Of a DNA stretch of 64,000 nt, positions 2,541-61,870 are shown piece by piece. Source of the DNA: Arthrobacter sp. H35-D1. GTDB lineage: Bacteria; Actinomycetota; Actinomycetes; Actinomycetales; Micrococcaceae. Position 1 is the first letter of the stretch. Each line of letters starts with the position of its first letter. The notes beneath the pieces are model-generated. The model was not told the DNA's origin, did no database searches, and saw only the letters and a program-made list of their open reading frames with translations. The stretch is taken from positions 124,001 to 188,000 of the forward strand of contig NZ_JASISP010000001.1 of NCBI RefSeq assembly GCF_030063185.1, read 5' to 3'. The translations under genes and the position numbers were made by a program.

Positions 2541-3359
2541 TCATCCCAGGCCGCCCGCGTTGCGCAGCCCGCCGTCGAGTGTCAGGACCTGGCCCGTCAC
2601 CCAGGAGGCGTCGGAGGAGGCGAGGTACGCCACTGCGGAGGCCACGTCGTCGGGCTCCCCCAGCCGCCCCAGCGGATAGGCTGCGGCAACTTCTGCCTCG
2701 CGGCCCTCGTACAGGGCACCGGCAAAACGGGTCTTGACCACGGCCGGCGCCACGGCGTTCACCCTGATTTCCGGCGCCAGTTCAACGGACAGCGTGCGGG
2801 TGAGGTGGGAGACGGCGGCCTTGCTGATCCCGTACAGGCCCAGGCCCGGGGCGGGGATGTCGCCGCTGACGGAGGACACGTTCACCACGTTCCCGCGCCG
2901 CTCCCGGAACCCCAGCCCGGGATGCGCCAGCACGGCCTGCGTCCAGGCGAGCGTGCCGAGGACGTTGACCTCGAAGATCTTGCGGGCCGCGGCCAGCTCC
3001 ACGGTTTCCAGCGGCCCGTACACGGGGTTGATGCCGGCATTGTTGACCAGTATGTCCAGCCCGCCAAAATGATGGTCGACGGCGGCCAGCACCTCCGCGC
3101 GGTGGTCCGGGTCGTCCGCCCGCCCGGCAATGGCGATCGCGTTCTCGCCAAGGGAGGCGAGCGCCGCGTCCAGCTGGTCCTGATGCCTGGCGGTGATCAG
3201 CACCCGGGCTCCCTCGGCTGCCAGTCGCTGCGCAACGGCCAGCCCGATTCCCCGGCTGGCGCCGGTGACCACGGCCGTCTTGCCGCGGAACCGCGGGGCC
3301 GGGTCCTGCGCTGGATTCTGGGCCGGCTTCTGGGCTGGGGGCCTGCTGTCATGCACCAT
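2541..3359 (-). CDS. SDR family oxidoreductase
   Basis: 272-residue classical short-chain dehydrogenase/reductase. Seen: NAD(P)-binding TGASRGIG (residues 32-39), NNAG (106-109) and the catalytic Y176-x3-K180 in YGISK, with a serine near 163. A Pro/Ala/Gln-rich repeat (about residues 7-22) precedes the Rossmann fold. ATG at 3359 is preferred over the open frame to 3461 because GGAAGAAG lies just upstream and the paralogous remnant near 14854 conserves exactly this start. First gene of the cluster with acyl-CoA dehydrogenase and kinase, so probably a hydroxyacyl or alcohol dehydrogenase in the same pathway. Its first codons and upstream region recur at 14841-14934, and a piece of its coding region at 5303-5480. 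Confidence 0.9.
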   Translation of the reverse strand: MVHDSRPPAQKPAQNPAQDPAPRFRGKTAVVTGASRGIGLAVAQRLAAEGARVLITARHQDQLDAALASLGENAIAIAGRADDPDHRAEVLAAVDHHFGGLDILVNNAGINPVYGPLETVELAAARKIFEVNVLGTLAWTQAVLAHPGLGFRERRGNVVNVSSVSGDIPAPGLGLYGISKAAVSHLTRTLSVELAPEIRVNAVAPAVVKTRFAGALYEGREAEVAAAYPLGRLGEPDDVASAVAYLASSDASWVTGQVLTLDGGLRNAGGLG

Positions 3360-3439
3360 GGGGACTTCTTCCGTTGTGATCCCGCTTGCCCGTCGGCAAC
3401 AACTGCCAGCATGCTGCGGAAATCGGCAACGGTCAAGGG
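3346..3439. repeat. SDR start-and-leader repeat, copy 1
   Basis: This 94-bp stretch covers the first codons and upstream region of the intact SDR. It matches 14841-14934 at 91 of 94 positions by eye. The second copy is the 5' end of a paralogue interrupted by the transposon. Confidence 0.9.
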
Positions 3440-3485
3440 GTCGGCGGGCAAAGCGCGCCATCCCCCGGACGCCCGCTCAGCGCAT

Positions 3486-5302: not shown

Positions 5303-5485
5303 GCCCTGGCGAGGGCGCTGTCGCCGAGCGAGGCAAGCGCCTCGTCCAGCTGGTCCTGATGCCTGGCGGTGATCAGTACCCGGGCATCCTCGGCCCCCAA
5401 GCGCCGTGCAACGGCCAGCCCGATTCCTCGGCTGGCGCCGGTGACCACGGCCGTCTTGCCGCGGAACCGCCGGGCCGGGTCCGGT
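5303..5485 (-). pseudogene. SDR paralogue, part downstream of the transposon
   Basis: Matches the intact SDR from about its residue 20 (DPA...FRGKTAVVTGASRGIG) to its residue 72, then breaks into the RamB tail fragment. Its beginning lies 9.3 kb away at 14824-14854. Removing 5486-14823 and one CCGGT copy rejoins the two parts in frame (MVHDRRSPTPDPARRFRG...). The frame would then run to a stop at 5218, about 97 codons, so the paralogue was already truncated before the transposon arrived. Confidence 0.92.
5481..5485. repeat. Target-site duplication, left copy
   Basis: CCGGT directly abuts the left transposon end (TGTCA). The same five bases abut the right end at 14824-14828. Five-base duplications are typical of Tn402/Tn5053 and Tn7-like elements. 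Confidence 0.9.
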
Positions 5486-5583
5486 TGTCATTTTCAGAAG
5501 TCGAGTGCGCAAATGTCAGGAGTCATCTTCACTGGTCTGATTTTTCAGAAGTGCTCTGCACGAAATTTCAGAAGTTGTCAGCA
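5486..5583. repeat. Transposon left end with three TniA-type repeats
   Basis: The outer repeat is 5486-5510. TTTCAGAAGT recurs at 5492-5501, 5543-5552 and 5566-5575, the arrangement of transposase-binding repeats at Tn402/Tn5053-family ends. The right end shows no such series. Confidence 0.85.
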
Positions 5584-5710
5584 CATCCCTCCCTGTCCGC
5601 AAGGGGAACCGTCGCCGAACACAATTGCTATTAGTCATGGTTGCCACTAGGTGAGCTGAGGTCTTGGTAGGCTCGTTTTTTGAAACTATCTGGGCGTAAA
5701 GGTGGGGGAA

Positions 5711-6121
5711 ATGAATTCAAATAATATTCTGGTAATGACTGCAGTAGTGGCCATGTTGGCACTGACTGGTTGCTCGGCACAGGCAAATGTATCGGCTGAT
5801 GCTGTAGGGGGCATCACCTCTAGATCGGGTGAAAATTGCTCAGGGGGATTCGAGAGCATCTGGAATTCGACCCCAGTTGACGGTGATGTATCCGGACTGC
5901 CCCAGGAGACCGTGACGGTAGTTTCGGAGACGGGCCGGATCTTTGATGCCATGCGCAGGGGATCAGACGGGACCGCGGAGGCAGTTGCACTAGAGAGCGT
6001 CGATTACAAGGTCAATGTGGATCCGTCTTGGCCGAAGAACCACGCCGTGATGATCGATACTGCTACGGATAAGGTTCTTGAAATCATCGAAATACCGGCC
6101 GACGCACCCGTGTGTGACTAG
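5711..6121 (+). CDS. Small lipoprotein, unknown function
   Basis: 136-residue secreted lipoprotein. The signal peptide runs from the ATG at 5711 through a hydrophobic stretch (VMTAVVAMLA) to the lipobox LTGC, so the mature protein would begin at Cys about residue 20. AGG lies upstream with acceptable spacing; a GTG at 5702 is a less likely start. The mature part has two further cysteines, in ENCSGGF and at the C-terminus (APVCD), that could pair. I recognise no domain. Transposon cargo, with base composition poorer in G+C than the chromosome. It may form a unit with the membrane protein at 6388; the 266 bp between them hold no convincing gene. Confidence 0.65.
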   Translation: MNSNNILVMTAVVAMLALTGCSAQANVSADAVGGITSRSGENCSGGFESIWNSTPVDGDVSGLPQETVTVVSETGRIFDAMRRGSDGTAEAVALESVDYKVNVDPSWPKNHAVMIDTATDKVLEIIEIPADAPVCD

Positions 6122-6387
6122 GCTCATCCAGCCCATATGGTCAGTGATTGCCAGGGCCACCGTACTCAATTTCCGAAACCCCTGCAAGAAAATCCAGTAC
6201 CCAATCTACGTGGGTCATCCGTGTCCCAATTTGGAACGCTCTGCGGTCATCACGATTGATGAAATCATCCCTTGGTTGGACGATCCAACTTTCACATCCT
6301 GGAAGAATTGACAGATGGAACCCAGCCCGAATGCTACCTCGGTCGTTATGGGTGCACTCGCCGTGACTCACAAGGAAATGATCTGAA

Positions 6388-6744
6388 TTGCAACGAATGC
6401 CACTACGAGGATGGCTTGGACTAACCTTGCTCTCCTTCCTTGTCCTCGGCGTCACGTTTTTCATCGGGATATTCGCCTCCGGTAAGGACACTGACGAGAC
6501 ATGCGCGAAGGCAGGCCAACTGCTTGACGATACCTATCGGGCGCAGAACTGGCAAGAACCAGGGCGGCTCTTCCCTCTACATAACAAATGCAACGCCGGT
6601 TATGACATGATCCCGGTCTGGATCAATCCTGCTCTGGTGATCTTCTCCGTTCTAACGGCCACATTTATCTGCGCGTTTATCGTCGCGGCAACCAAACGTT
6701 TGAAAGCACACCGACGAGAACGCCAAATTCATGACAAGCGGTAA
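6388..6744 (+). CDS. Small two-span membrane protein
   Basis: 118 residues from a TTG start at 6388 (AAGGAA about 11 bases upstream), or 115 from ATG at 6397. Two hydrophobic helices (about residues 8-30 and 78-101) flank an outside loop of about 45 residues with two cysteines; a basic tail (KRLKAHRRERQ) should face the cytoplasm. No recognisable family. The end overlaps the start of the Tat-signal ORF at 6731 by 14 bases, suggesting that these and perhaps the lipoprotein once formed an operon for an envelope function. Transposon cargo. Confidence 0.55.
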   Translation: MQRMPLRGWLGLTLLSFLVLGVTFFIGIFASGKDTDETCAKAGQLLDDTYRAQNWQEPGRLFPLHNKCNAGYDMIPVWINPALVIFSVLTATFICAFIVAATKRLKAHRRERQIHDKR

Positions 6745-6832
6745 ACTCACCCGCCGCAGTCTTCTCGGAGCTACCGTCGCAGTCTCCGGCACGCTGGTGT
6801 TCCCCATGAATGCGGCTCTCTTTATCCCGTAA
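6731..6832 (+). pseudogene. Truncated Tat-exported protein (signal peptide only)
   Basis: 33 codons starting MTSGKLTRRSLLGATVAVSG, a twin-arginine signal (RRSLLG plus a hydrophobic core), then a stop after MNAALFIP. It overlaps the preceding gene by 14 bases, as a real operon gene would. The coding part ends exactly where a Tn3-like terminal repeat begins (6833), so the body of the gene was probably cut off by that older insertion. Confidence 0.6.
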
Positions 6833-6871
6833 GGGGTCTGTCCGGATAGGGTCTCAGAACCGTCCCGTAAG
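6833..6871 (+). repeat. Possible Tn3-family terminal inverted repeat
   Basis: A 39-base stretch beginning GGGGTCTGTCCGGA, with CTCAGAAC in the middle and ending CCCGTAAG, has the shape of Tn3-family ends (GGGG outside, TAAG inside, 38-39 bp). No matching opposite end was found in the window. The following 200 bp up to the MerR gene hold nothing I can name. Confidence 0.45.
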
Positions 6872-7080
6872 CCGGTCCACCACCGGGCACATCAGCCGCT
6901 GACCTGCTGCTTTGCAAATGGTGGCCCTTGAAGTGTCCGTATATGTGGTTTTCAACGCTTCGTGGCGGCGTTCTGTGATCGCTCGATGTCGCCGGCTACA
7001 GGTGCAGTCTTCCAAGGCAGTGAGGTTGCGAGGTATAGGGCTGCAGTGCGTGTCGCTCCATATACCCGCTAGTGGAACGT

Positions 7081-7527
7081 TTAGCGGGCTTCGGGCACGG
7101 ATTGCTCTGGAAGTGGCGGGGTGGTGGTCTTACGTGCGCGGAAGACGCATTCTGTGGAGCAGTATTCGTCGCGGTCTGGGCAATTTGCTAGGCCGTCTTC
7201 GGCCTGATTGAGGCGGGCGCGTAGCGCATCCAAGTGTGCGCGTTTCTTATCTAGCTGGCGCACTCGTTCGGCCAAGAGGGATCGAAGGTGGTCTCTCACC
7301 TCGGTGCAGGAATCAGCTTCAAGTGAGTGGAGGTGGCTGCTTATGTCCGCTAGAGACAGGCCGAGTTCTTTGCTGGCCTCGATGATGTCGAGGCGGTTCA
7401 GCACGTCGCTGTCGTATTCGCGGTAGCCGTTGGTGGCGCGGCGGGGGCTGATGAGGCCAATGCTCTCGTAGTAGCGCAGCGCGGTGGTGGTGACGCCGCT
7501 GCGTTTGGTGACTTCCGAGATGCGCAT
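7081..7527 (-). CDS. MerR-family regulator (module 1)
   Basis: 148-residue MerR-type activator. The N-terminal winged helix-turn-helix MRISEVTKRSGVTTTALRYY is followed by the dimerisation helix (about 75-110). Cysteines at 74, 116, 123 and 127 (DSCTEV, NCPDRDEYCSTEC) are placed for binding a soft metal or metalloid, in the general layout of metal-sensing MerR proteins though not matching one type exactly. It is divergent from the BASS carrier at 7621, and the promoter between them has the over-long 19-bp spacer with a dyad that MerR proteins act on. The effector is unproven; arsenic or antimony is a guess based on the carrier. Confidence 0.85.
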   Translation of the reverse strand: MRISEVTKRSGVTTTALRYYESIGLISPRRATNGYREYDSDVLNRLDIIEASKELGLSLADISSHLHSLEADSCTEVRDHLRSLLAERVRQLDKKRAHLDALRARLNQAEDGLANCPDRDEYCSTECVFRARKTTTPPLPEQSVPEAR

Positions 7528-7555
7528 GAGGTGAGCCTATCGGTTGTCTCCGCGC

Positions 7556-7586
7556 TTGACCTTCAAGTGACTAGAAGGTTTACAGT
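7556..7586 (+). promoter_or_regulatory. MerR-type promoter and operator (module 1)
   Basis: The -35 TTGACC (7556-7561) and -10 TACAGT (7581-7586) are separated by 19 bp, the spacing that needs MerR-type distortion. The dyad ACCTTC-N9-GAAGGT overlaps the spacer. The expected start of transcription is about 7593, next to an ATG at 7595, so the transcript may be leaderless. Confidence 0.75.
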
Positions 7587-7594
7587 TGTTCACC

Positions 7595-7624
7595 ATGACC
7601 TCTCTCTTCGGTTTCAGTTCGTGA
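7595..7624 (+). CDS. Nine-codon leader ORF upstream of the carrier
   Basis: MTSLFGFSS followed by TGA. The ATG sits at the predicted transcription start and the stop overlaps the carrier's GTG start as GTGA, so it could feed ribosomes to a gene that has no Shine-Dalgarno sequence of its own. It may equally be chance. Confidence 0.35.
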   Translation: MTSLFGFSS

Positions 7625-8613
7625 CGCACGTGGTTTTATGGCTGGAGCGCCACCAGATCCTTTTTTATCTCGCTGCGATTGCTATTGGTGGCGTCTTTGG
7701 GATGATGGTGGCCGATGCCCACCATCTTGAGACAGCGATCGAACCCGTGCTCGCGTTGCTGTTATTCGCGACGTTCCTCGGTGTCCCGTTTGCCGCTATC
7801 GGCAGGTCACTGCGCGATGTTCGGTTCCTCGGGGCGGTCGGCGTACTTAATTTTGTTGTCGTTCCGCTGGTGGCCTATGGCCTGTCTCGGTTTGTCGTGG
7901 ATGAGCCTGCACTACTGTTCGGGGTGCTGTTGGTGTTGCTGACGCCGTGCATCGATTATGTGATCGTGTTCGCGGGCCTCGCTGGCGGCGCGTCGGAGCG
8001 TCTCCTCGCGGCTGCGCCGCTGCTGATGCTCGCGCAGATGCTGCTGCTGCCCGTGTATTTATTGGTATTCATCGGCCCGGATGGGGTCGCGGTGGTTGAG
8101 GTCGCGCCGTTCGCCAGGGCGTTCGTGCTGCTCATCGTGATCCCTCTGACCGCTGCCGTAGTCATACAGTGGCTGGCACAACGTCACCGCGCCGGGCACC
8201 TGATCCAGAGCATCATGTTGAACCTGATGGTGCCGCTGATGATTGCCACTTTGTTTACCGTCGTCGCCTCTCAGGCTGGCGCGGTTGGCGCGGCGGCCGT
8301 GCAACTCCTGACCCTAGTACCGATCTACCTCGCGTTCCTCGTCATTATGACAGTCGTCGGGCTCGGCACAGGCCGCCTATTTCGGTTAGACGTCCCGGCA
8401 ACCCGCGCGCTTGTCTTCAGCGGAGCTACCCGCAATTCGCTGGTCGTGCTTCCGATGGCACTGGCGCTACCCGGATCCCTCGCGCTCGTCCCGGTCGTGG
8501 TGGTGACTCAAACACTGATCGAGCTGGTCGGCATGGTGGTCCTCGTCAGGATCGTTCCGCGACTTGTTCGCACCCCAGAGGCATCGAGAATAGAACTACC
8601 GCGGCATCTGTAA
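7621..8613 (+). CDS. BASS/ACR3-like membrane carrier (arsenite efflux-like)
   Basis: 330 residues with about ten hydrophobic helices, of the bile acid:Na+ symporter/ACR3 type. The motif LTPCIDYVIVF carries the cysteine that ACR3 arsenite exporters keep in the fourth helix region. In that family the protein exports arsenite or related oxyanions, or imports organic anions. The open frame begins at 7531 but that part contains the promoter, so the GTG at 7621, overlapping a nine-codon leader, is taken as start; 7630 is an alternative. It is controlled by the divergent MerR protein rather than the usual ArsR. No arsenate reductase is nearby. Confidence 0.72.
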   Translation: MTHVVLWLERHQILFYLAAIAIGGVFGMMVADAHHLETAIEPVLALLLFATFLGVPFAAIGRSLRDVRFLGAVGVLNFVVVPLVAYGLSRFVVDEPALLFGVLLVLLTPCIDYVIVFAGLAGGASERLLAAAPLLMLAQMLLLPVYLLVFIGPDGVAVVEVAPFARAFVLLIVIPLTAAVVIQWLAQRHRAGHLIQSIMLNLMVPLMIATLFTVVASQAGAVGAAAVQLLTLVPIYLAFLVIMTVVGLGTGRLFRLDVPATRALVFSGATRNSLVVLPMALALPGSLALVPVVVVTQTLIELVGMVVLVRIVPRLVRTPEASRIELPRHL

Positions 8614-8822
8614 GACGAGCCGGCCAGCGTCTCAGCTCGGACCCACGGAGATGTCGCGAGTCCCGTCCCGGTATCATTTTCAGTTTAGTAACCCCAGTGA
8701 TACACGGTATCGCGTTGACGTTGGCGAGCAACGACAACGCGGGTGAAGTGCACTTGTAGATGGCGTGGTTTTGGCGGCGGTAAATGGCGTGCATCCGACG
8801 GTGTTATGGCTGCGGTTTCTTT

Positions 8823-10175
8823 CTAGAGCATGGATCCGAGGTCTGAGCCGATGGATGGGTAGGTGGCGGTCATGGATTTCAGTTGTTTGGAGGTAAGGCC
8901 CAGTTTGATGGCGAGGGCGAAAATGTTGATGAGTTCGGCATAGCCGGGCCCGAGCAGGTGCGCTCCGAGGATTTTATTCGTGGTTTTGTCGATGATGATC
9001 TTCGTGCTGGCGGTTGTCTCGCCCACCCGGTAGTTGGAGTACCAGCCGCTGGTGTCGTTGGTCTCGACCACGATGTCGATGCCCCTGTCTCGTGCTTCCT
9101 GTTCAAGGACGCCGACTCGGTTGAGTTCCGGGATGGTAAATACAGTGGTGGGAACGCCGGTGTAGTCAGGGACGGTCGTGATGCCTTTGAGCATGTTGGA
9201 GGCGGCGATCTTCCCTTCGAACACTGCGACGGGGGTCAGGGGTTTTCCAGGGGTGTCGGCGGCATCGCCGGCGGCAAACACGGAAGGGTTTGTGGTGCTT
9301 TGCAGGTGTCCGCTCACGGTGACTCCTCGGGGCCCGGATGCGATGTTGGCGACTTCGAGGTTCAGAGTCTCTAGGTTGGCAGTGCGGCCGGCGCCGTGCA
9401 CCGCCAGGTCGGCTCCGAGGGTTAATGTCTTCCCGTCTTTTTCCGCGGTCACTTCCAGCCCGGTGGCGGTTCGTCTCACGTGGGTGAGCGTGGTGTTTGA
9501 TAGCACTTGGATTCCGGCCTGCTCACTCCTGTGGATGAGGTCTTCCACGAGGTCCGGATCGAATTCCTTCAAGGGACGCTCACCGTGGTCGATGATCACG
9601 CACTCAACGCCGGCGCGGGCGGCGATATGCGCGAACTCAAAGGAGATGAACCCTCCACCGATGAACACGATTCTCTGCGGTAGCGAGTCGAGGTCCAAGA
9701 AGTCGGTGCTATCGATCAGATGCTCATGGCCGGGAAAAGTGAGTGCGCGTGGGCGTGCGCCGGTTGCGATGAGGAAACGTTTCGCCTGGTGCTCTTTCCC
9801 GTTGATGCTGAGCAGGTTCGGCCCGGTGAATCGGGCAGTGCCATGGAAGATTTCTACCCCGTTCCCAGTGAGTTCATCTTCCATGCCTTGCGGCACAGCA
9901 TCGGTAAAGCCTCGCTTGTGGCGCATCAGTGCCGCCCAATCGATCGACAGCCGGTCCTCGGTAATGCCCTTGTCACGCATCAAGTTGGCGGCGTCGATTA
10001 CTTCCGCGCCACGACGGAGGATCTTCTTGGGATCACAACCACGCAGCGCACAGGTGCCCCCGTAGGGTAGGGCATCCACGATTCCCACCCGCCATCCCCG
10101 CGCCGCACATTTGTTCGCCGCCGTCGTGCCAGCCATCCCGGCGCCAATAACAAACAGATCGTATTCCTCGTCCAT
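8823..10175 (-). CDS. MerA-like FAD/NAD(P) disulfide oxidoreductase
   Basis: 450-residue class I pyridine nucleotide-disulfide oxidoreductase. Seen: FAD-binding GAGMAG (residues 11-16), redox cysteines C42 and C47 in GGTCALRGCDPKK, NAD(P)-binding GGGFISFE, FAAGDAAD, and a dimerisation domain. It resembles mercuric reductase but lacks the N-terminal HMA domain and the C-terminal vicinal cysteines, ending SDLGSML, so reduction of Hg(II) is doubtful; a low-molecular-weight disulfide, metalloid or quinone is more likely. GGAAA precedes the ATG. It follows the thioredoxin-like gene by 60 bp and shares its MerR-type promoter. It converges with the carrier gene; the 209 bp between hold nothing I recognise. 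Confidence 0.85.
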   Translation of the reverse strand: MDEEYDLFVIGAGMAGTTAANKCAARGWRVGIVDALPYGGTCALRGCDPKKILRRGAEVIDAANLMRDKGITEDRLSIDWAALMRHKRGFTDAVPQGMEDELTGNGVEIFHGTARFTGPNLLSINGKEHQAKRFLIATGARPRALTFPGHEHLIDSTDFLDLDSLPQRIVFIGGGFISFEFAHIAARAGVECVIIDHGERPLKEFDPDLVEDLIHRSEQAGIQVLSNTTLTHVRRTATGLEVTAEKDGKTLTLGADLAVHGAGRTANLETLNLEVANIASGPRGVTVSGHLQSTTNPSVFAAGDAADTPGKPLTPVAVFEGKIAASNMLKGITTVPDYTGVPTTVFTIPELNRVGVLEQEARDRGIDIVVETNDTSGWYSNYRVGETTASTKIIIDKTTNKILGAHLLGPGYAELINIFALAIKLGLTSKQLKSMTATYPSIGSDLGSML

Positions 10176-10235
10176 GGGATATTTCCTTCTTGCCGGCGCT
10201 GCCGGTCTCGTGAGTCGTGGTCGGGGTCGTTCTGC

Positions 10236-10535
10236 TTAGGTGGCGGGGATCGCTGCCCGGAGTTGTTCAAGTGTCGGCGCTCCGGCGATACCGTCGGGCG
10301 TCTGGTAAAGACGGCAGGAGAGCCCCACGGAAGAGATTCGATCCGGGAAAAGATCCGCGCCGTCGAGCAGGATGCTTGGTGAGCCGCGGAAGCCGGTAGC
10401 CTCCGCATCTTCGGGCGTCTCCACCAGAAGATGCGTCACTGTTATGTCGGTGCGCTCTTGTGCGATGATGGCCAGCCGTTCAGCGGCAATCAGCCAGTTC
10501 GGGCATCCGTTGAAGTATTGCAAGGTGATCTCCAT
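10236..10535 (-). CDS. Thioredoxin-fold small protein
   Basis: 99 residues with an N-terminal beta strand followed by NGCPNW (Cys11), a single-cysteine thioredoxin-like active site, and FRGSPSILLDG, which looks like the cis-Pro loop. Short proteins of this type are often encoded with MerR regulators and are sometimes annotated as alkylmercury-lyase-like; that reaction is not supported here. The ATG at 10535 lies about two bases from the predicted transcription start, hence probably leaderless; the open frame extending to 10631 runs through the promoter. First gene of the operon with the flavoprotein, which may reduce it. Confidence 0.72.
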   Translation of the reverse strand: MEITLQYFNGCPNWLIAAERLAIIAQERTDITVTHLLVETPEDAEATGFRGSPSILLDGADLFPDRISSVGLSCRLYQTPDGIAGAPTLEQLRAAIPAT

Positions 10536-10543
10536 GGGCCCAA

Positions 10544-10574
10544 CACTAAACCTTGCACCGTACCGCAAGGTCAA
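10544..10574 (-). promoter_or_regulatory. MerR-type promoter and operator (module 2)
   Basis: On the minus strand TTGACC (10574-10569), a 19-bp spacer and TTAGTG (10549-10544). The perfect dyad CCTTGC-N8-GCAAGG fills the spacer. The layout equals that of module 1 at 7556-7586, with a different dyad. Transcription should start about 10537, at the thioredoxin-like gene's ATG. Confidence 0.78.
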
Positions 10575-10590
10575 GTGATTGGATAGGAGC

Positions 10591-10995
10591 ATGCGAATTG
10601 GAGAACTGGCCCTTGCCACCGGAGTGAACACACAAACCCTCAGATTCTATGAACGCCGAGGCCTTCTTCCGCTCGCGGAACGGGAAATGAACGGATACCG
10701 TCACTATGACCAGGCCGCTGCCTCTCACATACGGTTTATCCGGGGAGCCCAGGCGGTCGGGATGACACTGGCAGACATAAAAAGCATCCTGGTCATCCGC
10801 CAGGACGGAAAGGTGCCCTGCGAGCACGTCACTGCACTGCTCATCAGGAAACTCGAAGACGTCCGTGCCCGGCAACAAGAACTAGCACTCCTGGAAACCG
10901 AGCTGCAAAATCTCATCGATACGAGTCGAGACCTCGACCCAGTCGACTGCACGGCAGGATCCGTCTGCCAGATCATCCCCCACCCACATCCATAG
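10591..10995 (+). CDS. MerR-family regulator (module 2)
   Basis: 134-residue MerR-type activator: MRIGELALATGVNTQTLRFY is the winged helix-turn-helix, a coiled coil follows, and the effector loop contains Cys77 (VPCEHV), Cys120 and Cys126 (DCTAGSVC). Three cysteines at about these places are the ligands in the mercury, lead, zinc and cadmium members, but the 43-residue gap between the first and second is longer than in classical mercury MerR, so the metal cannot be named. The ATG at 10591 follows AGGAG closely. It is divergent from the thioredoxin-like and flavoprotein genes, with the operator between. Confidence 0.86.
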   Translation: MRIGELALATGVNTQTLRFYERRGLLPLAEREMNGYRHYDQAAASHIRFIRGAQAVGMTLADIKSILVIRQDGKVPCEHVTALLIRKLEDVRARQQELALLETELQNLIDTSRDLDPVDCTAGSVCQIIPHPHP

Positions 10996-11208
10996 ACCCT
11001 CTGGGCAGGAATCGTGGCCGTTGATGGCACCCCTTGCATTCAGTCATCGCGTCTCGAAAAACTACAGCTTTCCAAGGCGCCCGGACGGCGCGAAAACGGC
11101 CGAACAAAAGTGGCGACTTTCAGGCACTCGCTTTGTCTCGTAAACATGTCTTGCCGAAATTCGTCTCTCCTAGGTCTCTTCTAGCGGTTTTTGAGGCAGA
11201 ATAGGCTT
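10996..11208. other. Intergenic region with probable resolution site
   Basis: 213 bp between the second MerR gene and the resolvase. The part next to the resolvase (about 11130-11208) repeats GTCTC/GAGAC words in both orientations (GTCTCGTAAACA, CGTCTCTCCTAGGTCTC, GTGAGACA). A res site immediately upstream of the resolvase gene is usual for this transposon class; exact subsites cannot be fixed by eye. Confidence 0.4.
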
Positions 11209-11805
11209 GTGAGACATCTCGGGTACACACGGGTCAGCACCAAGAGCCAAGACGCGCAGCTTCAGGTCGATGCGCTCGTCAAATCAGGCGTCCAAGAGCG
11301 CGACATTTTCGCCGACGTCACTTCTGGCAGCCGGACCGCGATTTCGCGCCCGGGGATGAAGAAGCTCCTTGAGTATGCCAAGCCTGGCGATACCGTCGTC
11401 GTGTGGAGGGTCGATCGGCTCGGGCGGTCCCTTATCGACGTGTTGAACACGGTGAAGCTGCTTCGGGAGCGGGAAGTGCAGGTGAAGAGCATCTCGGACG
11501 GCATCGACCCATCGACGACGTCGGGCCGTCTGATGCTGAACATGCTCGCCACGCTTGCCGAATACGAACGCGAGCTGATCACTGAAAGAGTGAACGCTGG
11601 AATTACGGCCGCCCGAAAAGGCGGCACCCGGTTCGGCCGTCCCTTGTCAGATCCCGTCGTCGTCGCCGACAAGCTTAAGCTTGTCTCCGAAGCCAGGGCC
11701 AAGGGTCGGACCGCGGAGGACGCGGCGAAGCTCGTCGGGTGGAGTCGCGCGACGTTGTATCGCCACCAGCAGGCCCTCGCGGCGCGCGAGAGCACGACAG
11801 TGTAG
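11209..11805 (+). CDS. Serine resolvase (TniR-like)
   Basis: 198-residue serine recombinase. GYTRVSTKSQ holds the catalytic Ser10; DRLGRSLIDV, LATLAEYERELITERV and a C-terminal helix-turn-helix (AEDAAKLVGWSRATLYRH) complete the small-resolvase plan. It would resolve cointegrates at the upstream res site. GTG at 11209 is preferred; TTG at 11191 is possible. The stop is seven bases before the likely tniA start, so the three transposition genes form one operon. No frameshift or missing motif. Confidence 0.92.
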   Translation: MRHLGYTRVSTKSQDAQLQVDALVKSGVQERDIFADVTSGSRTAISRPGMKKLLEYAKPGDTVVVWRVDRLGRSLIDVLNTVKLLREREVQVKSISDGIDPSTTSGRLMLNMLATLAEYERELITERVNAGITAARKGGTRFGRPLSDPVVVADKLKLVSEARAKGRTAEDAAKLVGWSRATLYRHQQALAARESTTV

Positions 11806-11812
11806 GTGTCGT

Positions 11813-13198
11813 GTGGATGCGCTCGAGCGGTGGCGTGTTCTTCGGCTGCATGTCGAAGACCAGATCCCGATCGCGGTCTTGGCGAGGGAGACCGGTATTT
11901 CGGCCCGAACGTTGCACCGGTGGCACCAGCTCTACCGCAAGGGCGGCGACGTCGGCCTTGATCCTCGTCCCCGCGCCGACAAAGGTGTCCGCCGGACAGC
12001 CCCCGGGACGGTGGCGTTCATCGAGCGGTTGGCACTGACCCGGCCGCGCCCTGCTCTTGCGACGTTGCACCGCCTCGCCGTCGCCGACGCGCTGCAACGC
12101 GAGCTGCCGGCGCCAAGCTACGCGGCCATTCGGCAGATCGTTCGCGCCCTCGATCCGGCCCTGGTCACTCTCGCTCTCGAAGGGCCGGTGTCGTATCGGG
12201 ACAAACACGAGCTCGTGTTCCGTCGCCGCGCCGAACGACCCAACCAGACGTGGCAGTCCGACCACACCGAACTCGACATCCTCATCGTCGGTGCCAACGG
12301 GAAACCTGACCGGCCCTGGCTGACCACCGTCATGGACGACTACTCCCGTGCCATCTGCGGGTACATGGTCTTCACCGGCGCCCCGTCAGCCCTGAACACG
12401 GCCCTCGCGTTGCGACAGGCGATCTGGCGAAAGACCGACCCTGCCTGGGCGATGTGCGGGATCCCCGACATCCTGCACGTGGACCACGGCTCCGACTTCA
12501 TCAGCCACCACCTCGAGCGCACCGCAATCGCCCTGCACATCAGGATCATCCACTCCACCGTTGGCCGGCCCCAGGGCCGCGGGAAGGTCGAGCGGTTTTT
12601 CGGCACAGTAAACACCGAACTACTCGGCATCCTCCCCGGGCACCTCGGACCCGGTGCCCGGTCACCCGCCCCTGTGCTTGATCTGCCAGGCCTTGATCGA
12701 GCGGTCCGCGACTTTATCGCCACCTACAACGACCGGCCCCACAGCGAGTTAGGCATGTCGCCGCGGGACGCGTGGGTCGCTGACGGTTGGCTGCCCCGGA
12801 TGCCGGAGAGTCTTGAAGAACTCGACGGGCTGCTCCTGACTGTTCCCAAGAACCGGGTCGTGCAACGCGACGGCATTCACTTCCAAGGCCAGCGCTACCT
12901 CTCTCCAACCCTCGCTTCGTTCGTCGGGCACACCATCACCATCCGGTACGACCCTCGCGATATCTCCGAGATCCGCGTCTACGACCGGGATGCCTTTGTC
13001 TGCACCGCTATCGACGAGGCCCACCCGAACCTTCGCCTCAGTCTCCGGGACATCGAAACGGCACGCCGTGCCCGACGCAAGCAACTGCGCCGAGTCATCA
13101 ACGATCGGATTCCGACGGTCGTCACCCGCGATGAAGCTCGCACCCCGGAACCGACAAAGCGGCGGCCAAAGCTTCGCACCTACGAAGAGGACGAGTGA
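11813..13198 (+). CDS. tniA: TniA-like DDE transposase
   Basis: 461 residues from the GTG at 11813. An N-terminal helix-turn-helix (about 14-40, LARETGISARTLHRWHQLY) is followed by a retroviral-integrase-type core with D150 (WQSDHTE), D224 (LHVDHGSDF) and E260 (GRGKVERFF), and a C-terminal Mu-transposase-like beta region. The length fits the Tn552 p480 branch better than the longer Tn5053 TniA. It cuts and joins the ends with the help of the ATPase encoded next. The open frame to 11681 overlaps the resolvase and is judged non-coding. The TGA overlaps the tniB ATG as TGATG. Confidence 0.92.
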   Translation: MDALERWRVLRLHVEDQIPIAVLARETGISARTLHRWHQLYRKGGDVGLDPRPRADKGVRRTAPGTVAFIERLALTRPRPALATLHRLAVADALQRELPAPSYAAIRQIVRALDPALVTLALEGPVSYRDKHELVFRRRAERPNQTWQSDHTELDILIVGANGKPDRPWLTTVMDDYSRAICGYMVFTGAPSALNTALALRQAIWRKTDPAWAMCGIPDILHVDHGSDFISHHLERTAIALHIRIIHSTVGRPQGRGKVERFFGTVNTELLGILPGHLGPGARSPAPVLDLPGLDRAVRDFIATYNDRPHSELGMSPRDAWVADGWLPRMPESLEELDGLLLTVPKNRVVQRDGIHFQGQRYLSPTLASFVGHTITIRYDPRDISEIRVYDRDAFVCTAIDEAHPNLRLSLRDIETARRARRKQLRRVINDRIPTVVTRDEARTPEPTKRRPKLRTYEEDE

Positions 13199-14010
13199 TG
13201 AATCAAGCATTCATCGTCACCAAGGAACACCGACGCTTCACCGAGTTCGCGAATGCCGTCCGGAAGGAAAAGACCATCGGGATCTGCCACGGCGCGGCTG
13301 GCGTTGGGAAAACGAACTCCGCCCGCCGCTACGCCAACTGGGATGCCCTTGAGCCCTACATCAACGAGTGGGGGCCGAGGGGAGATCACGACGCGAAGCA
13401 CTACGCCCTCGCGAACCGATCCCGCACCGTCTTCTACACACCCGAAGTCCTCTGCCGACCCAAAGAACTCATGCACGACATCGAGCATTGGCAGTACAAA
13501 GTCGGGATCTGCACCGACGGACACCTTAGCTCCCTCATACCCGAGGCGAAGACGGTCAGGCGCAAGGACGTCACCCGGCTCGTTGAGCTCCTCATCGTCG
13601 ATGAAGCCGAACGCCTCACTCCTACCGCCCTCGAACTCCTCCGAGACCAGCACGACCGCACTCATCTGGCAATGATCCTTATCGGCATGCCCGGCATCGA
13701 CGAACGATTCCGCCACTACCCACAGCTCTACAGCCGACTCGGGTTCTCACACCGTTACCGCGCCCTCGGGCGAGAAGAGATCCTGTTCGTCCTAGACCGC
13801 CACTGGAAACGCCTTGGTAAAACCCTCGACCCAGACGACTTCACCGACGCCCAAGCCATCGCCGCCATCGAAAGAATCACGCGCGGCAACTTCCGACTCC
13901 TCGAACGGCTCTTCCCCCAGATCAACCGGGTACTGAAGATCAACCAGCTCGACACCATCACCGACGACGTCGTTGAAGCTGCAGCAAGCATCCTGGTCAT
14001 CGGCAATTAG
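13198..14010 (+). CDS. tniB: TniB-like AAA+ ATPase of the transposon
   Basis: 270 residues. Walker A is GAAGVGKT (32-39) and Walker B LLIVDE (131-136), with an AAA+ lid rich in helices at the C-terminus (LERLFPQINRVLKI). Proteins of this type select the target DNA and activate TniA. The ATG at 13198 overlaps the tniA stop by one base; the GTG at 13195 is less likely. No TniQ gene follows: the next 110 bp are non-coding and then a decayed resolvase begins. Confidence 0.92.
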   Translation: MNQAFIVTKEHRRFTEFANAVRKEKTIGICHGAAGVGKTNSARRYANWDALEPYINEWGPRGDHDAKHYALANRSRTVFYTPEVLCRPKELMHDIEHWQYKVGICTDGHLSSLIPEAKTVRRKDVTRLVELLIVDEAERLTPTALELLRDQHDRTHLAMILIGMPGIDERFRHYPQLYSRLGFSHRYRALGREEILFVLDRHWKRLGKTLDPDDFTDAQAIAAIERITRGNFRLLERLFPQINRVLKINQLDTITDDVVEAAASILVIGN

Positions 14011-14120
14011 CGACACCGAGCGATCACAGAACAATGCCACGGAGCGATCAAATCCACAGTCCGTATAGGGTGTCCGGTGAACTGTCCGGTGATGGGTCCC
14101 TATGTGACACGCTGATCTAC

Positions 14121-14823
14121 ATGTCTAAGATCATGGTCGGCTACGCCAGATATGTTGGCATGAGACACGTCCAACCGGGTCTCTGTCTCACAACGAGCAT
14201 CGATTCTTCAGGCACCGTCATGGTCTGCGTCTGATTCGCCGGTCAGGGCGAGTACCGAAGAGCTCCAGCCAGACGTCACACGCGCCATTCGGGGAAGGAT
14301 CGCCGACATTGCCCGGACAACATCAATTCCATGGCCACAGCAGCCACGCGCGTGAGACACGGCCAAAGCGTCTACATAACACACGCGTGTCCACCGAGGC
14401 TCAAGACCTCTCCGCACAGCGTGATGCCCTGGCAACCCTTGGCGTTGAGTCGGAACGCGTCTATGTTGGTCATGGGTTTACCGGCACCAACAAGAATCGT
14501 GCTGGCCTCCGCGAAGCCTTAGCCGCTTGCCGGGCCGGAGATACCTTCGTCGTTACCAGACTTGACCGCTCGGCCCGTTCCGTCCGGGACGCCCACGAAA
14601 TCGCCGATAACCTCACGAGCCGCGAAATCAAACTCAGCATCAGCGGTTCCCCATGACCCTACCGATCCGATGGGCAAACTGCTGTTCAACGTGCTGGCAA
14701 TGATCTCCGAGTTCGAAGCCGACCTTATTCGGATGCGCACCCGCGAAGGAATGAAGGTTGCCAAGGCCAAGGGACGGCTCCGGGGGAAGCATCCCAAACT
14801 CACCACGAAGCAGGAAAGTGACA
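14121..14823 (+). pseudogene. Second serine resolvase, broken in pieces
   Basis: Starts as MSKIMVGYAR at 14121, is interrupted by about 230 bp, resumes as TRVSTEAQDLSAQRDAL near 14383 and continues through VVTRLDRSARSVRDAHEIAD. A one-base deletion near 14650 shifts the frame (HDPTDPMGKLLFNVLAMI continues the family sequence). It is cut at KLTTKQE by the right transposon border, losing the helix-turn-helix. Both edges of the 230-bp interruption show GAGACACG-x-CCAA, perhaps a small inserted element. Confidence 0.8.
14799..14823. repeat. Transposon right end
   Basis: Read inward the end is TGTCACTTTC, matching nine of the first ten bases of the left end and then only scattered positions. It overlaps the remnant resolvase sequence and lacks the TTTCAGAAGT repeats seen on the left, so mobility from this end may be weak. 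Confidence 0.75.
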
Positions 14824-14854
14824 CCGGTGTTGGGGACCTTCTGTCATGCACCAT
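14824..14854 (-). pseudogene. SDR paralogue, 5' part upstream of the transposon
   Basis: Begins at the ATG at 14854 with MVHDRRSPTP, the counterpart of MVHDSRPP in the intact SDR. The frame is broken by the transposon after about ten codons, and CCGGT (14824-14828) is the right copy of the target duplication. The rest of the gene is at 5303-5485. Confidence 0.9.
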
Positions 14855-15934: not shown

Positions 15935-15993
15935 GGGGTGGTCCTACTTTCGTTCAGGCGGTGATGGCCGGGCGGAGGGCGCTGGCACTGCCG

Positions 15994-17490
15994 CTACCGT
16001 TCTGCGTGGGCGGAGAGAAACTTGTACACCTCAGTCTCGTCCACCCCGGGGAAAGCACCCTGTGGCATGGCTGCGAGCAAATGCGAGTTGGCACGCGTGG
16101 ACGGCCAGGCGTTTCCGGCCCACTGTGCCGAAAGCTCGGCCGGCGGCCTGCGGCAGCAGCTTGGATCCGGGCAGTTGGACTGCGAGCGCTCAGTGGTTTC
16201 ACGCCCGCGGAACCACTTCACGTGGGCGTAGGGCACGCCAATGCTCAGCGAATAGTCGCCCGAGGAATGCCGCTCGGTCCGCGCAGTGCACCAAAAAGTT
16301 CCCACCACGGTGTCCGTGTACTGGTTGAACGCCCGGAACTTGTCAGGGACGTCGAAAACTGCACGGGAGGTCCAGTAGCGGCATGCCGACTGCCCCTCGA
16401 TGGCTCCGGTGTGATCGGCGGGGAAGTTCACGCCGTCGTTCTCGTAGGCCTTGTGGAAGATTCCGGACTCGTGCACCTTTTGGAAGTGCGTGGTGATGCC
16501 CAAGTGCTCGGTGGCCAGATTGGTGAAGCGGTGTGCCGCGGTTTCATAGGAGACGGAAAAGGCGTCGCGGATGTCTTCGATGGCCAGCTCCTTGGCCGCC
16601 TTTGCCTCCTTGAGGAAATCCACGGTGGCCCGCTCGGGCATCAACAGCGAGGCCGCAAAGTAGTTGGTGTATACGCGCTGGCGCAAAAATTCAGCGTAGT
16701 TGTGCGGGGTCTCATGCCCCAAAACATAGTGCCCCAGTGCCTGCAACAGCACCGAACGGGGGTCGTGGTCCGAACGCTGACCTTGGGTGAGATAAATTCG
16801 GCGGTTCTTCAAATCCGTCACCGATCGGGTTGAATGCGGTAAATCCCCCACATAGTGCAGGTCAAAACCCAGGTGTTCGGCCACGTCGGCAGCCACATGG
16901 TGGGACAGCGGTCCGCGGTCATGCCCCACCGCCTTGAGCAGGTCCTGGGCCTGGCGCTCGATCTCCGGGTAATAGTTGTTGCGCTCGCGCATTTCCTGGC
17001 GCAGTTCGTTGTTGGCCCGACGCGCCTCCTCCGGTGTGGCCGACTGCTCGTCCATCCGGCGCTCCAGCTCGTGCTGGAGCCCCACCAGTGACTCCAATAC
17101 CTCCGTGGAGAGCCTCGAGCCGACGCGGACTGTGGGCAATCCCAATGATTGGTAGAGCGGACCGCGCTGTGCCCTTTCGAGCTCGATTTCCAGCGCAGCC
17201 CGTCTGCTGGGCGGCTCGGCTCCCAGCAGTTGTTCAAGCCCGACGCCGAGTGCCCCCGCCAGCTGCTGCAGGAGCGTCAGCTTGGGCTCACGTTTGCCAT
17301 TTTCAATTAGCGACAGCTGGGACGGGGCGGCCCCCACCTTCCGGCCGAGATCGTCAAGGGTCATGCCCAAGCCTTTGCGCAGGTGCCGCACACGCCGGCC
17401 CAGCGAAATGATGTCCAGTTCCCCAGGTGCCCCTGCCACTTTGCCGCCCGGAGCAGCCGCTTCGCCCACATTCCAGCCCGTATTAGTCAT
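15994..17490 (-). CDS. ramB: RamB-like regulator of acetate metabolism
   Basis: 498-residue regulator from the ATG at 17490 (507 from 17517). Order: helix-turn-helix of the XRE type (about 30-85, MTLDDLGRKVGAAPSQLSLIENG), a charged linker, an ImmA/IrrE-like segment (LLQALGHYVLGHE) and the short-chain-fatty-acid regulator C-terminal domain with a Cys cluster (NCPDPSCC). RamB in corynebacteria represses the glyoxylate-shunt genes; here it is divergent from aceA, which is followed by aceB, supporting the same role. Its last 18 residues recur in a fragment near 5240, evidence of a past duplication. Confidence 0.88.
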   Translation of the reverse strand: MTNTGWNVGEAAAPGGKVAGAPGELDIISLGRRVRHLRKGLGMTLDDLGRKVGAAPSQLSLIENGKREPKLTLLQQLAGALGVGLEQLLGAEPPSRRAALEIELERAQRGPLYQSLGLPTVRVGSRLSTEVLESLVGLQHELERRMDEQSATPEEARRANNELRQEMRERNNYYPEIERQAQDLLKAVGHDRGPLSHHVAADVAEHLGFDLHYVGDLPHSTRSVTDLKNRRIYLTQGQRSDHDPRSVLLQALGHYVLGHETPHNYAEFLRQRVYTNYFAASLLMPERATVDFLKEAKAAKELAIEDIRDAFSVSYETAAHRFTNLATEHLGITTHFQKVHESGIFHKAYENDGVNFPADHTGAIEGQSACRYWTSRAVFDVPDKFRAFNQYTDTVVGTFWCTARTERHSSGDYSLSIGVPYAHVKWFRGRETTERSQSNCPDPSCCRRPPAELSAQWAGNAWPSTRANSHLLAAMPQGAFPGVDETEVYKFLSAHAER

Positions 17491-20780: not shown

Positions 20781-20918
20781 TTTCCACAATTTTGGCTGGC
20801 TTGCCGGACACGCCGCCACTGCCGGCCCGAGAGTCGGGCCCCGGCAGCCAGCCACTACTCTCATCCACAGCGGCACCCTCACCGCCCCTACCGACCCACC
20901 CCGTCCCCACGCGGACGT

Positions 20919-20981
20919 CGAGACGGGAGCAGTCTGCAATGTTCTTCGCATACATTGCAGACTGCTCCCGTCTCGATTTTT
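20919..20981 (+). terminator. 24-bp-stem terminator after aceB
   Basis: Perfect 24-base arms (20919-20942 and 20952-20975) with a nine-base loop, followed by ATTTTTG. The 138 bp between the aceB stop and the hairpin contain a second, weaker GC-rich dyad and no gene. Confidence 0.88.
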
Positions 20982-30125: not shown

Positions 30126-30181
30126 AAAAAGGGCCCGGTCGGTGCCCATATCCGCAACGGACATGGGCACCGACCGGGCCC
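30126..30181 (-). terminator. RNase J terminator
   Basis: 19-base perfect arms (30131-30149, 30163-30181) followed on the minus strand by TTTTTC. Stops transcription from the RNase J gene; it may also stop the convergent UPF0158 transcript. Confidence 0.88.
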
Positions 30182-30198
30182 TCAACGAGTGGTGCGGA

Positions 30199-33696: not shown

Positions 33697-33726
33697 TACG
33701 CAAATGCCTGCCCTGTCAATGGCTGG

Positions 33727-33976
33727 CCGGCAGGGACCCGGGTTCATTCCGCAGCACCTGCGGGTGGCAGGCAGGGGCCCGGGTTCATTCTGCAGCACCT
33801 GCGAGTGGCCGGCAGGGACCCGGGTTCATTCTGCAGCTCCTGCGAGTGGCCGGCAGGGACCCGGGTTCATTCTGCAGCTCCTGCGGGTACCGGGGTCGGC
33901 GACCCACAGGTGCTGCAGAATGAACGGGCGACAGGGACGCTGACCCGCAGGAGCTGCAGAATGAACGAGCCCGGGC
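33727..33976. repeat. 41-bp direct repeats plus two inverted partial copies
   Basis: Four consecutive 41-bp units (33727-33767, 33768-33808, 33809-33849, 33850-33890) share CCCGGGTTCATTCTGCAG. Two inverted partial copies (about 33903-33929 and 33944-33975) follow, so transcripts could form alternative hairpins. The units have no spacers and differ from each other, so this is not CRISPR. No gene is present in the 463-bp gap. Confidence 0.9.
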
Positions 33977-35335: not shown

Positions 35336-35580
35336 GGTGTTCCTTCGTTCGGGAAGGCGCATGGTGCGCCATACTTACGCCGGCGGCTGGTGCCGAGAGC
35401 GTCGAATCCTCACCTGGGGCACCCCACTATGGTGGCGAGGGTTGCCGTTCGACCGGCCAGGGCCCGTGGTCGAAACTCTTGATTCTGTCCATCAGTCTGC
35501 CAACCCGGGCTCCCCGCTTCAACCTCTCCGTCACACGGAGCAACAGTTCTTCCACGCACGACGGCGTCACCCGCCCCGCG

Positions 35581-35655
35581 GAATCTATGCTGCACTTGTT
35601 GGACGAAAAACGACGAAAATGGGCCTATTCCGTCCAACAAGTGCAGCATAGATTC
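35581..35655. repeat. Long hairpin element between OsmC and ABC-F genes
   Basis: Perfect 24-base arms (35581-35604 and 35632-35655) and a 27-base loop. The core (35583-35653) is the same length, 71 bp, as the 19023-19093 element and shares the arm words ATGCTGCA and GTTGGAC. The rest of the 390-bp gap (35336-35725) shows nothing else I can name. Confidence 0.82.
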
Positions 35656-35725
35656 AGGGGAAGGGGTGACCGGGCACACCTCGTTGCAGTCAGGCCCATC
35701 CCCGGAAGCAACTTAAGCTGGAGAC

Positions 35726-53871: not shown

Positions 53872-53919
53872 AAGCACGACGGCGCGCCCCCACCTCAGTG
53901 GGGACGCGCCGTCGTGCTT
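53872..53919 (-). terminator. gdhA terminator
   Basis: About 20-base arms AAGCACGACGGCGCG... (53872-53891) and complement (53899-53919) around a seven-base loop; the longest stem of the terminators on this strand. Confidence 0.85.
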
Positions 53920-61772: not shown

Positions 61773-61781
61773 GACGCACAT

Positions 61782-61822
61782 ATGGTGATCCGCGCCCGAT
61801 TTAACCGGGCGCGGATCACCAT
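61782..61822. terminator. 17-bp-stem terminator
   Basis: Perfect arms ATGGTGATCCGCGCCCG (61782-61798) and complement (61806-61822) around seven bases, between the convergent alkyltransferase and proC genes. Confidence 0.85.
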
Positions 61823-61870
61823 GTCTGCAGCGAAATTGCACGGCACCGCAGTGGCGGACACAGCCAGGAG

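Follow-up and report, generated by a model that had tools for sequence, protein, structure and literature searches.

The 64,000-nt window of Arthrobacter sp. H35-D1 analysed here (all coordinates are positions within this window) contains two nested transposons. A complete Tn552-like transposon lies inside a disabled, tni-less carrier of the Tn402 type, a reading to which we assign a probability of about 0.9. An initial annotation had described a single Tn402/Tn5053-like transposon in a broken SDR gene; the left end type and the 5-bp duplication stand, and the single element does not, since a complete second transposon occupies 6944-14058. Both insertions are accompanied by target duplications, of 5 and 9 bp, respectively, and element-free relatives exist for both.

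Outer insertion

The stretch between the outer borders, 5486-14823, is 9.3 kb long and has the termini TGTCA.../...TGACA. It begins with TGTCATTTTCAGAAG at 5486 and ends with GAAAGTGACA at 14823, which reads TGTCACTTTC inward, and CCGGT is found on both sides. When the flanks are fused at a single CCGGT, the reading frame stays open and encodes an SDR N-terminus, MVHDRRSPTPDPARRFRGKTAVVTGASRGIGLA..., which is colinear with relatives and with the window paralogue at 2541-3461. A search with the left flank matched 38 of 58 genomes, and in all four same-genus loci fetched (L147-L150) the element is absent at the SDR junction and the SDR gene is continuous. The junction in L147 and L149 has the same length as in the window; those in L148, L150 and the window paralogue are off by whole codons. 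The nucleosidase and regulator genes to the right of the element also trail an uninterrupted SDR start only in L150, where the spacing before them is about 700 bp, compared with about 50 bp in the window. The exact borders, the CCGGT duplication, the rejoined frame and the element-free SDR relatives establish that the outer insertion is real. In these respects the initial annotation, which gave the same borders and the restored frame, is confirmed.

It could be argued that CCGGT matches by chance and that the outer borders are unrelated breakpoints, as a 5-base match is expected once in 1024. However, CCGGT coincides with a repeat-bearing end and with TGACA opposite to it, and the joined frame follows four relatives and the paralogue, which makes this explanation hardly credible.

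On its far side, the SDR copy also lacks the sequence beyond about 5307. The gene is interrupted by the element, as had been claimed, and this truncation is a second cause of its broken state. The segment 5238-5308 resembles 15993-16062 (about 71 bp, 86% identical), so that the end of a regulator ORF (open reading frame) is repeated beside the truncated SDR copy. This repeat is a sign of an older local duplication.

Inner transposon

The recombinase, transposase and ATPase genes, which had been taken as the resolvase/TniA/TniB set of the outer element, are enclosed by a second pair of inverted ends with its own 9-bp duplication, GTCCGTATA. The ends showed no pairing longer than 49 bp in an ungapped comparison. 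In a megablast search of the whole stretch against plasmids, records from Cryobacterium and Citricoccus match the transposition genes up to 14058-14060, the point where the inner right end stops.

The same boundary was observed in a survey of relatives of the inner ATPase, in which the best 80 of 144 relatives gave 79 loci and, with seven plasmid loci and the window, a total of 87. A TGTG[GA] right end occurs at the corresponding distance in 83 of the 87, and the flanking DNA is mostly different. Four loci have no recognisable right end and six of the remaining 83 have too little flank, leaving 77 testable loci. In 28 of these, a repeat of the right flank precedes an upstream TGTG[GA]. The repeat is 9 bp long in 11 loci (the window included), 10 bp in one, 8 bp in four, 7 bp in four and 6 bp in eight; six of these last eight are from Curtobacterium and near relatives. 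When the right flanks were shuffled 200 times, a mean of 0.175 loci had a repeat of 6 bp, 0.08 of 7 bp and 0.015 of 8 bp, and none had a longer one.

Two further observations concern this family. L010 contains a small element at 11886-13819 with the inner end type and the 9-bp repeat CGTCGACGT, adjoining a larger element, which has a 9-bp repeat of its own. The inner-type transposon also occurs with an identical right flank in two Microbacterium genomes (L029, L030), the strain names of which we take to be those of sulfonamide degraders.

The 24 loci given were compared with the outer sequence after removal of the inner insertion; in 11 of them, the alignment runs across the junction. Nine of these 11 loci were picked by a match to the res region, L156 by the cargo and L025, from the same genome, by the resolvase; the alignment of L162 crosses the junction by only 12 bases. 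Exactly one GTCCGTATA, in an uninterrupted site, is present in 5 of 7 aligned relatives.

It is important to compare these results with the alternative of a single 9.3-kb Tn402/Tn5053-like transposon with its own resolvase, TniA and TniB, which accounts for the outer TGTCA/TGACA ends and the CCGGT duplication and would place the transposition genes directly inside the TGTCATTTTC ends. These genes are instead separated from the outer ends by the second inverted pair, and their relatives, set in different flanking DNA, also stop at this TGTG[GA] end. Uninterrupted res sites lacking the inner part exist, and the inner TniA is closer to the staphylococcal plasmid type than to the TniA of TniABQ clusters. 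Among the matches listed, it shares about 40% identity over the full length with transposases on staphylococcal (S. aureus) plasmids; with the TniA from a TniABQ cluster of the same genus it shares 29%. Many other transposases match it only partly, at 25-33%, among the 60 of 4214 matches listed. The staphylococcal records do not carry the name, and their transposases would correspond to Tn552 p480. A single transposon is, on this evidence, very improbable.

The inner insertion lies in a res-like site about 62 bp before the start of the outer resolvase. This conserved region probably works as res, and targeting of res may be the cause of the nesting. In the inner family, 13 of 74 loci have a resolvase gene at most 1 kb from the right end; the counts further out are 2 of 68, 0 of 65 and 1 of 60 (only loci with enough sequence were counted). 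Seven of the 16 loci whose repeat is at least 8 bp long have a resolvase no more than 1.2 kb from one end. These counts point to at most a preference of the inner branch for resolvase sites, such as is described for Tn552 in the available part of PMC3276174.

Right edge of the outer element

The right end of the outer element had been read as matching the left one. The match is limited to the last 6-10 bases or so, and within 250 bp inside the right border the 19-bp repeat of the left end reaches 11/19 at best, within the background of 8-13. Resolvases from 31 loci were compared at this edge, two of which fell short of the compared place. The relatives can be aligned with the window as far as GGAA(A) at 14816-14817, beyond which their resolvase genes run on. 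The final GTGACA is matched at only 1-3 of 6 bases in all 29 aligned relatives. In two cases, L021 and L152, the resolvase relatives reach a real right end; both end in GAAAATGACA, with ATGACA there matching GTGACA at 5 of 6 bases. The right edge most likely arose by loss of the DNA between one GAAA in the resolvase and another close to the tip of the end, a deletion that spared the last bases and the duplication.

A nested structure could also have formed with no deletion, if the outer element had moved by a cryptic 10-bp end inside the resolvase. The duplication directly abuts GAAAGTGACA, 9/10 bases of which agree with the two real ends. However, such an end needs several changes at a position that encodes histidine in 28 of the 29 relatives, all 29 of which match GTGACA there at only 1-3 of 6 bases although their resolvase is 71-88% identical up to the divergence. 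The end-type repeat is also absent within 250 bp. A cryptic end is thus unlikely, and loss of the true right end by deletion is preferred.

The start of the resolvase is split by a 232-bp insertion, which is present in a single copy in this genome and has no evident target repeat; among 37 other genomes, one 36-bp match to it was found. The insertion of the outer element had been called recent from its intact duplication. Because the element holds a nested 7.1-kb insertion and the 232-bp insertion and has lost its right end, the intact CCGGT is not a proof of recency.

Proposed movement of the outer element

Repeats of 19 bp of the TniA type at both ends are a feature of Tn402/Tn5053 transposons. 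The four repeats in the outer left end match a consensus typed by hand at 15-17 of 19 positions, compared with a background maximum of 13 in 400 random 250-bp stretches, and they would be binding sites for a TniA-type transposase. With the first 115 bp as the query, a plasmid search at a lax limit found 672 records, including Arthrobacter plasmids and many proteobacterial ones; among the 20 of 672 matches listed, the first 51-53 bp are 82-85% identical to stretches of proteobacterial plasmids, with weak E-values.

No tniA, tniB or tniQ was found in the outer element, the TniA/TniB-like genes there being those of the inner transposon. The TniQ model PF06527, which scores a same-genus TniQ at 84 bits, had no match in this genome in a search whose own control gave no signal. 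With a same-genus TniA as the query, only the inner TniA and the C50 TniA matched in this genome. The latter, at L028, is a 548-aa transposase of another type with a 270-aa ATPase; the transposase shares about 50% identity with those of other actinobacterial plasmids. This pair was considered as the trans-acting transposase and dropped, as other repeats were seen by eye downstream of it. In another genome of the genus (locus L192), TniA, TniB and TniQ adjoin ends of the outer element's type. This cluster was not accepted as an autonomous relative: its genes and end type fit, but no end pair with a matching 5-bp repeat was found in it.

This genome has a second copy of the outer type, which lies 20 kb past the window (L021, 8408-10290). 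The C-terminus of its resolvase reads through to a stop codon, after which a real right end is found; a gene that we take to be IS110-like cuts the left end. The copy also contains two ORFs, presumably VOC-like and DUF1801-like. L152 has a related 7-kb tni-less element with the 5-bp duplication GAATG, a resolvase beside the right end and an internal gene pair, presumably IS21-like. In L155, similarity to the left end and to res occurs about 340 bp apart. A miniature element, 323 bp long with Tn402-type ends and the 5-bp repeat ACCGG, was observed at 3922-4244 of L199, a family relative.

The proposed history is as follows, and no order among its events is implied. The outer element carried its own res and serine resolvase and entered the SDR copy, where it generated the CCGGT duplication; it would have been moved in trans by TniABQ. 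The inner transposon inserted in the outer res, a target possibly chosen by res hunting, and duplicated GTCCGTATA. A deletion, probably between the two GAAA stretches, would have taken the resolvase C-terminus and all but 6-10 bp or so of the right end, and the 232-bp insertion split the resolvase start, leaving the outer element immobilised.

Several observations weigh against this explanation. TniABQ of the matching type was not found in this genome, and movement of the outer element in trans is therefore only inferred. The TniABQ cluster of L192 showed no end pair bearing a matching 5-bp repeat, and a sister strain in which the outer element at this site has kept an intact right end was not seen. 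Of the testable inner-family loci, 49 of 77 have no flank repeat of at least 6 bp, and two of the seven relatives aligned differ in sequence at the 9-bp place. Only the 13 of 74 loci mentioned above are near a resolvase, so that res targeting is at most a preference seen from the right side.

Table 1. Features of the two nested transposons and of the interrupted gene, in window coordinates.
Feature	Position	Strand	Remarks
SDR copy, N-terminal part	14829..14854	-	MVHDRRSPTP...
SDR copy, continuation past the element	5308..5480	-	no similarity to SDR past about 5307
Target duplication CCGGT, left copy	5481..5485		5 bp
Target duplication CCGGT, right copy	14824..14828		5 bp
Outer element (two parts)	5486-6943 and 14059-14823		Tn402-type left end, res-resolvase module
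Outer left end, TGTCATTTTCAGAAG...	5486..5584	+	four 19-bp repeats, at 5492, 5514, 5543 and 5566
Outer cargo, small lipoprotein-like ORF	5702..6121	+	no Pfam/NCBIfam match; homologue in same-genus locus L157
Outer cargo, small ORF	6388..6744	+	function not assigned
Outer res, left part	6861..6943	+	conserved in related genomes
Target duplication GTCCGTATA, left copy	6935..6943		9 bp
Inner transposon, complete, Tn552-like	6944-14058		7.1 kb
Inner left inverted end, TGTGG...	6944..6992	+	49 nt; 84% complementary to right end
Inner cargo, MerR-type regulator	7081..7527	-	
Inner cargo, SBF/ACR3-like transporter	7531..8613	+	above Pfam SBF cut-off, below ACR3 cut-off
Inner cargo, NAD(P)/FAD disulfide oxidoreductase	8823..10175	-	glutathione-reductase/MerA-like, below those NCBIfam cut-offs
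Inner cargo, small DF-family protein	10236..10538	-	just below cut-off
Inner cargo, MerR-type regulator	10591..10995	+	
Inner serine recombinase (Tn552 bin counterpart)	11191..11805	+	PF00239, 144.8 bits
Inner DDE transposase (Tn552 p480/TniA counterpart)	11810..13198	+	PF00665, PF09299; Mu-type C-terminus
Inner AAA ATPase (Tn552 p271/TniB counterpart)	13198..14010	+	PF13401
Inner right inverted end	14010..14058	-	49 nt
Target duplication GTCCGTATA, right copy	14059..14067		9 bp
Outer res, right part	14068..14120	+	
Outer resolvase remains	14121..14823	+	split near start, frame lost, C-terminus missing
232-bp insertion in resolvase start	14147..14378		absent from compared relatives
Remnant of outer right end, GAAAGTGACA	14814..14823	-	joined to resolvase codons

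Inner cargo

The five cargo genes of the inner transposon appear, from domain matches, to be metal-detoxification-like. Four of them have clear Pfam domains, and none reached an NCBIfam cut-off for a named function. Three of the proteins are 57-62% identical to counterparts in the related transposon of L006, where they are annotated as regulator, alkylmercury lyase and oxidoreductase. The oxidoreductase is 62% identical to its counterpart, and the protein annotated as alkylmercury lyase is the relative of the small DF-family protein. The serine recombinase is 93% identical in L006.

Comparison with known transposons

Tn552 occurs on staphylococcal plasmids and inserts at res sites, with target repeats of 6 and 10 bp, according to the available part of PMC3276174; a 7-bp target site is reported in the part available of PMC12486829. 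The inner element has the p480/p271/bin gene set described in the same part of PMC3276174, and it lies in a res site with a short target duplication (9 bp, compared with the 6-10 bp reported). However, the pairing found between its ends in an ungapped comparison covers 49 bp, while about 120 bp is reported for Tn552, and its cargo includes no bla genes, a difference not taken as family-defining. It represents an actinobacterial branch; the comparison used the gene set and the transposases of staphylococcal plasmids.

In the accessible text of PMC7765201, the Tn402/Tn5053 transposons have the arrangement tniABQ-res-tniR, 25-bp ends and 5-bp direct repeats, and are described as res-site hunters. 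The outer element was set beside them by features. It shares with them the repeat-bearing left end, the 5-bp duplication, and res with a (broken) serine resolvase. However, it is without tniABQ, its right end is only a remnant, and it targeted an SDR copy instead of a res site. The same text describes tni-defective elements of the Tn5053 family, such as Tn6606, which have the family ends and 5-bp repeats without the tni module and are moved in trans. The outer element is similar in its family end, its 5-bp repeat and its lack of a tni module. Elements of the Tn6606 type lie in or near res sites, while the outer element lies in the SDR copy, has lost one end and is itself the target of another res hunter.

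The outer resolvase, which may be a tniR or a Tn3-type tnpR, also has about 81% DNA identity to a resolvase of Corynebacterium pAG1 that adjoins a Tn3-family transposase, but the outer element showed no gene for a Tn3 transposase. The systems in PMC6794481 and PMC10969869, as far as their available parts describe them, were not used as close parallels. A keyword literature search gave no paper recognised as dealing with this actinobacterial pair among the matches listed, which does not imply that the pair is unpublished.

A recurrent actinobacterial class may be represented here, with Tn402-type ends, no tni genes and a Tn3-like res-resolvase of its own, moved in trans by TniABQ and preyed on by Tn552-like res hunters that generate 9-bp duplications. 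This is proposed tentatively, at slightly less than an even chance. The members so far would be the element of the window, L021 (with one end lost), L152 and perhaps L155.

Other repeats in the window

A cluster of direct and inverted repeats is found at 33721-33966, the direct ones being up to 124 bp long at 94% identity. Self-complementary stretches of about 45-105 bp are located at 20918-20976, 30130-30182, 35566-35670, 53872-53919 and 61776-61828, and are possibly terminators or mobile palindromes.

Significance of the nested arrangement

Precise borders with an undamaged short duplication are no proof of a single recent transposon. The nesting of res-site hunters, known for Tn552 and Tn5053 elements in Pseudomonas and staphylococci, is also found in actinobacteria, here with element-free alleles in relatives and with metal-detoxification-like genes carried along. 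The 9-bp duplication, which is common in the inner branch, is a usable aid for locating the ends of such elements.

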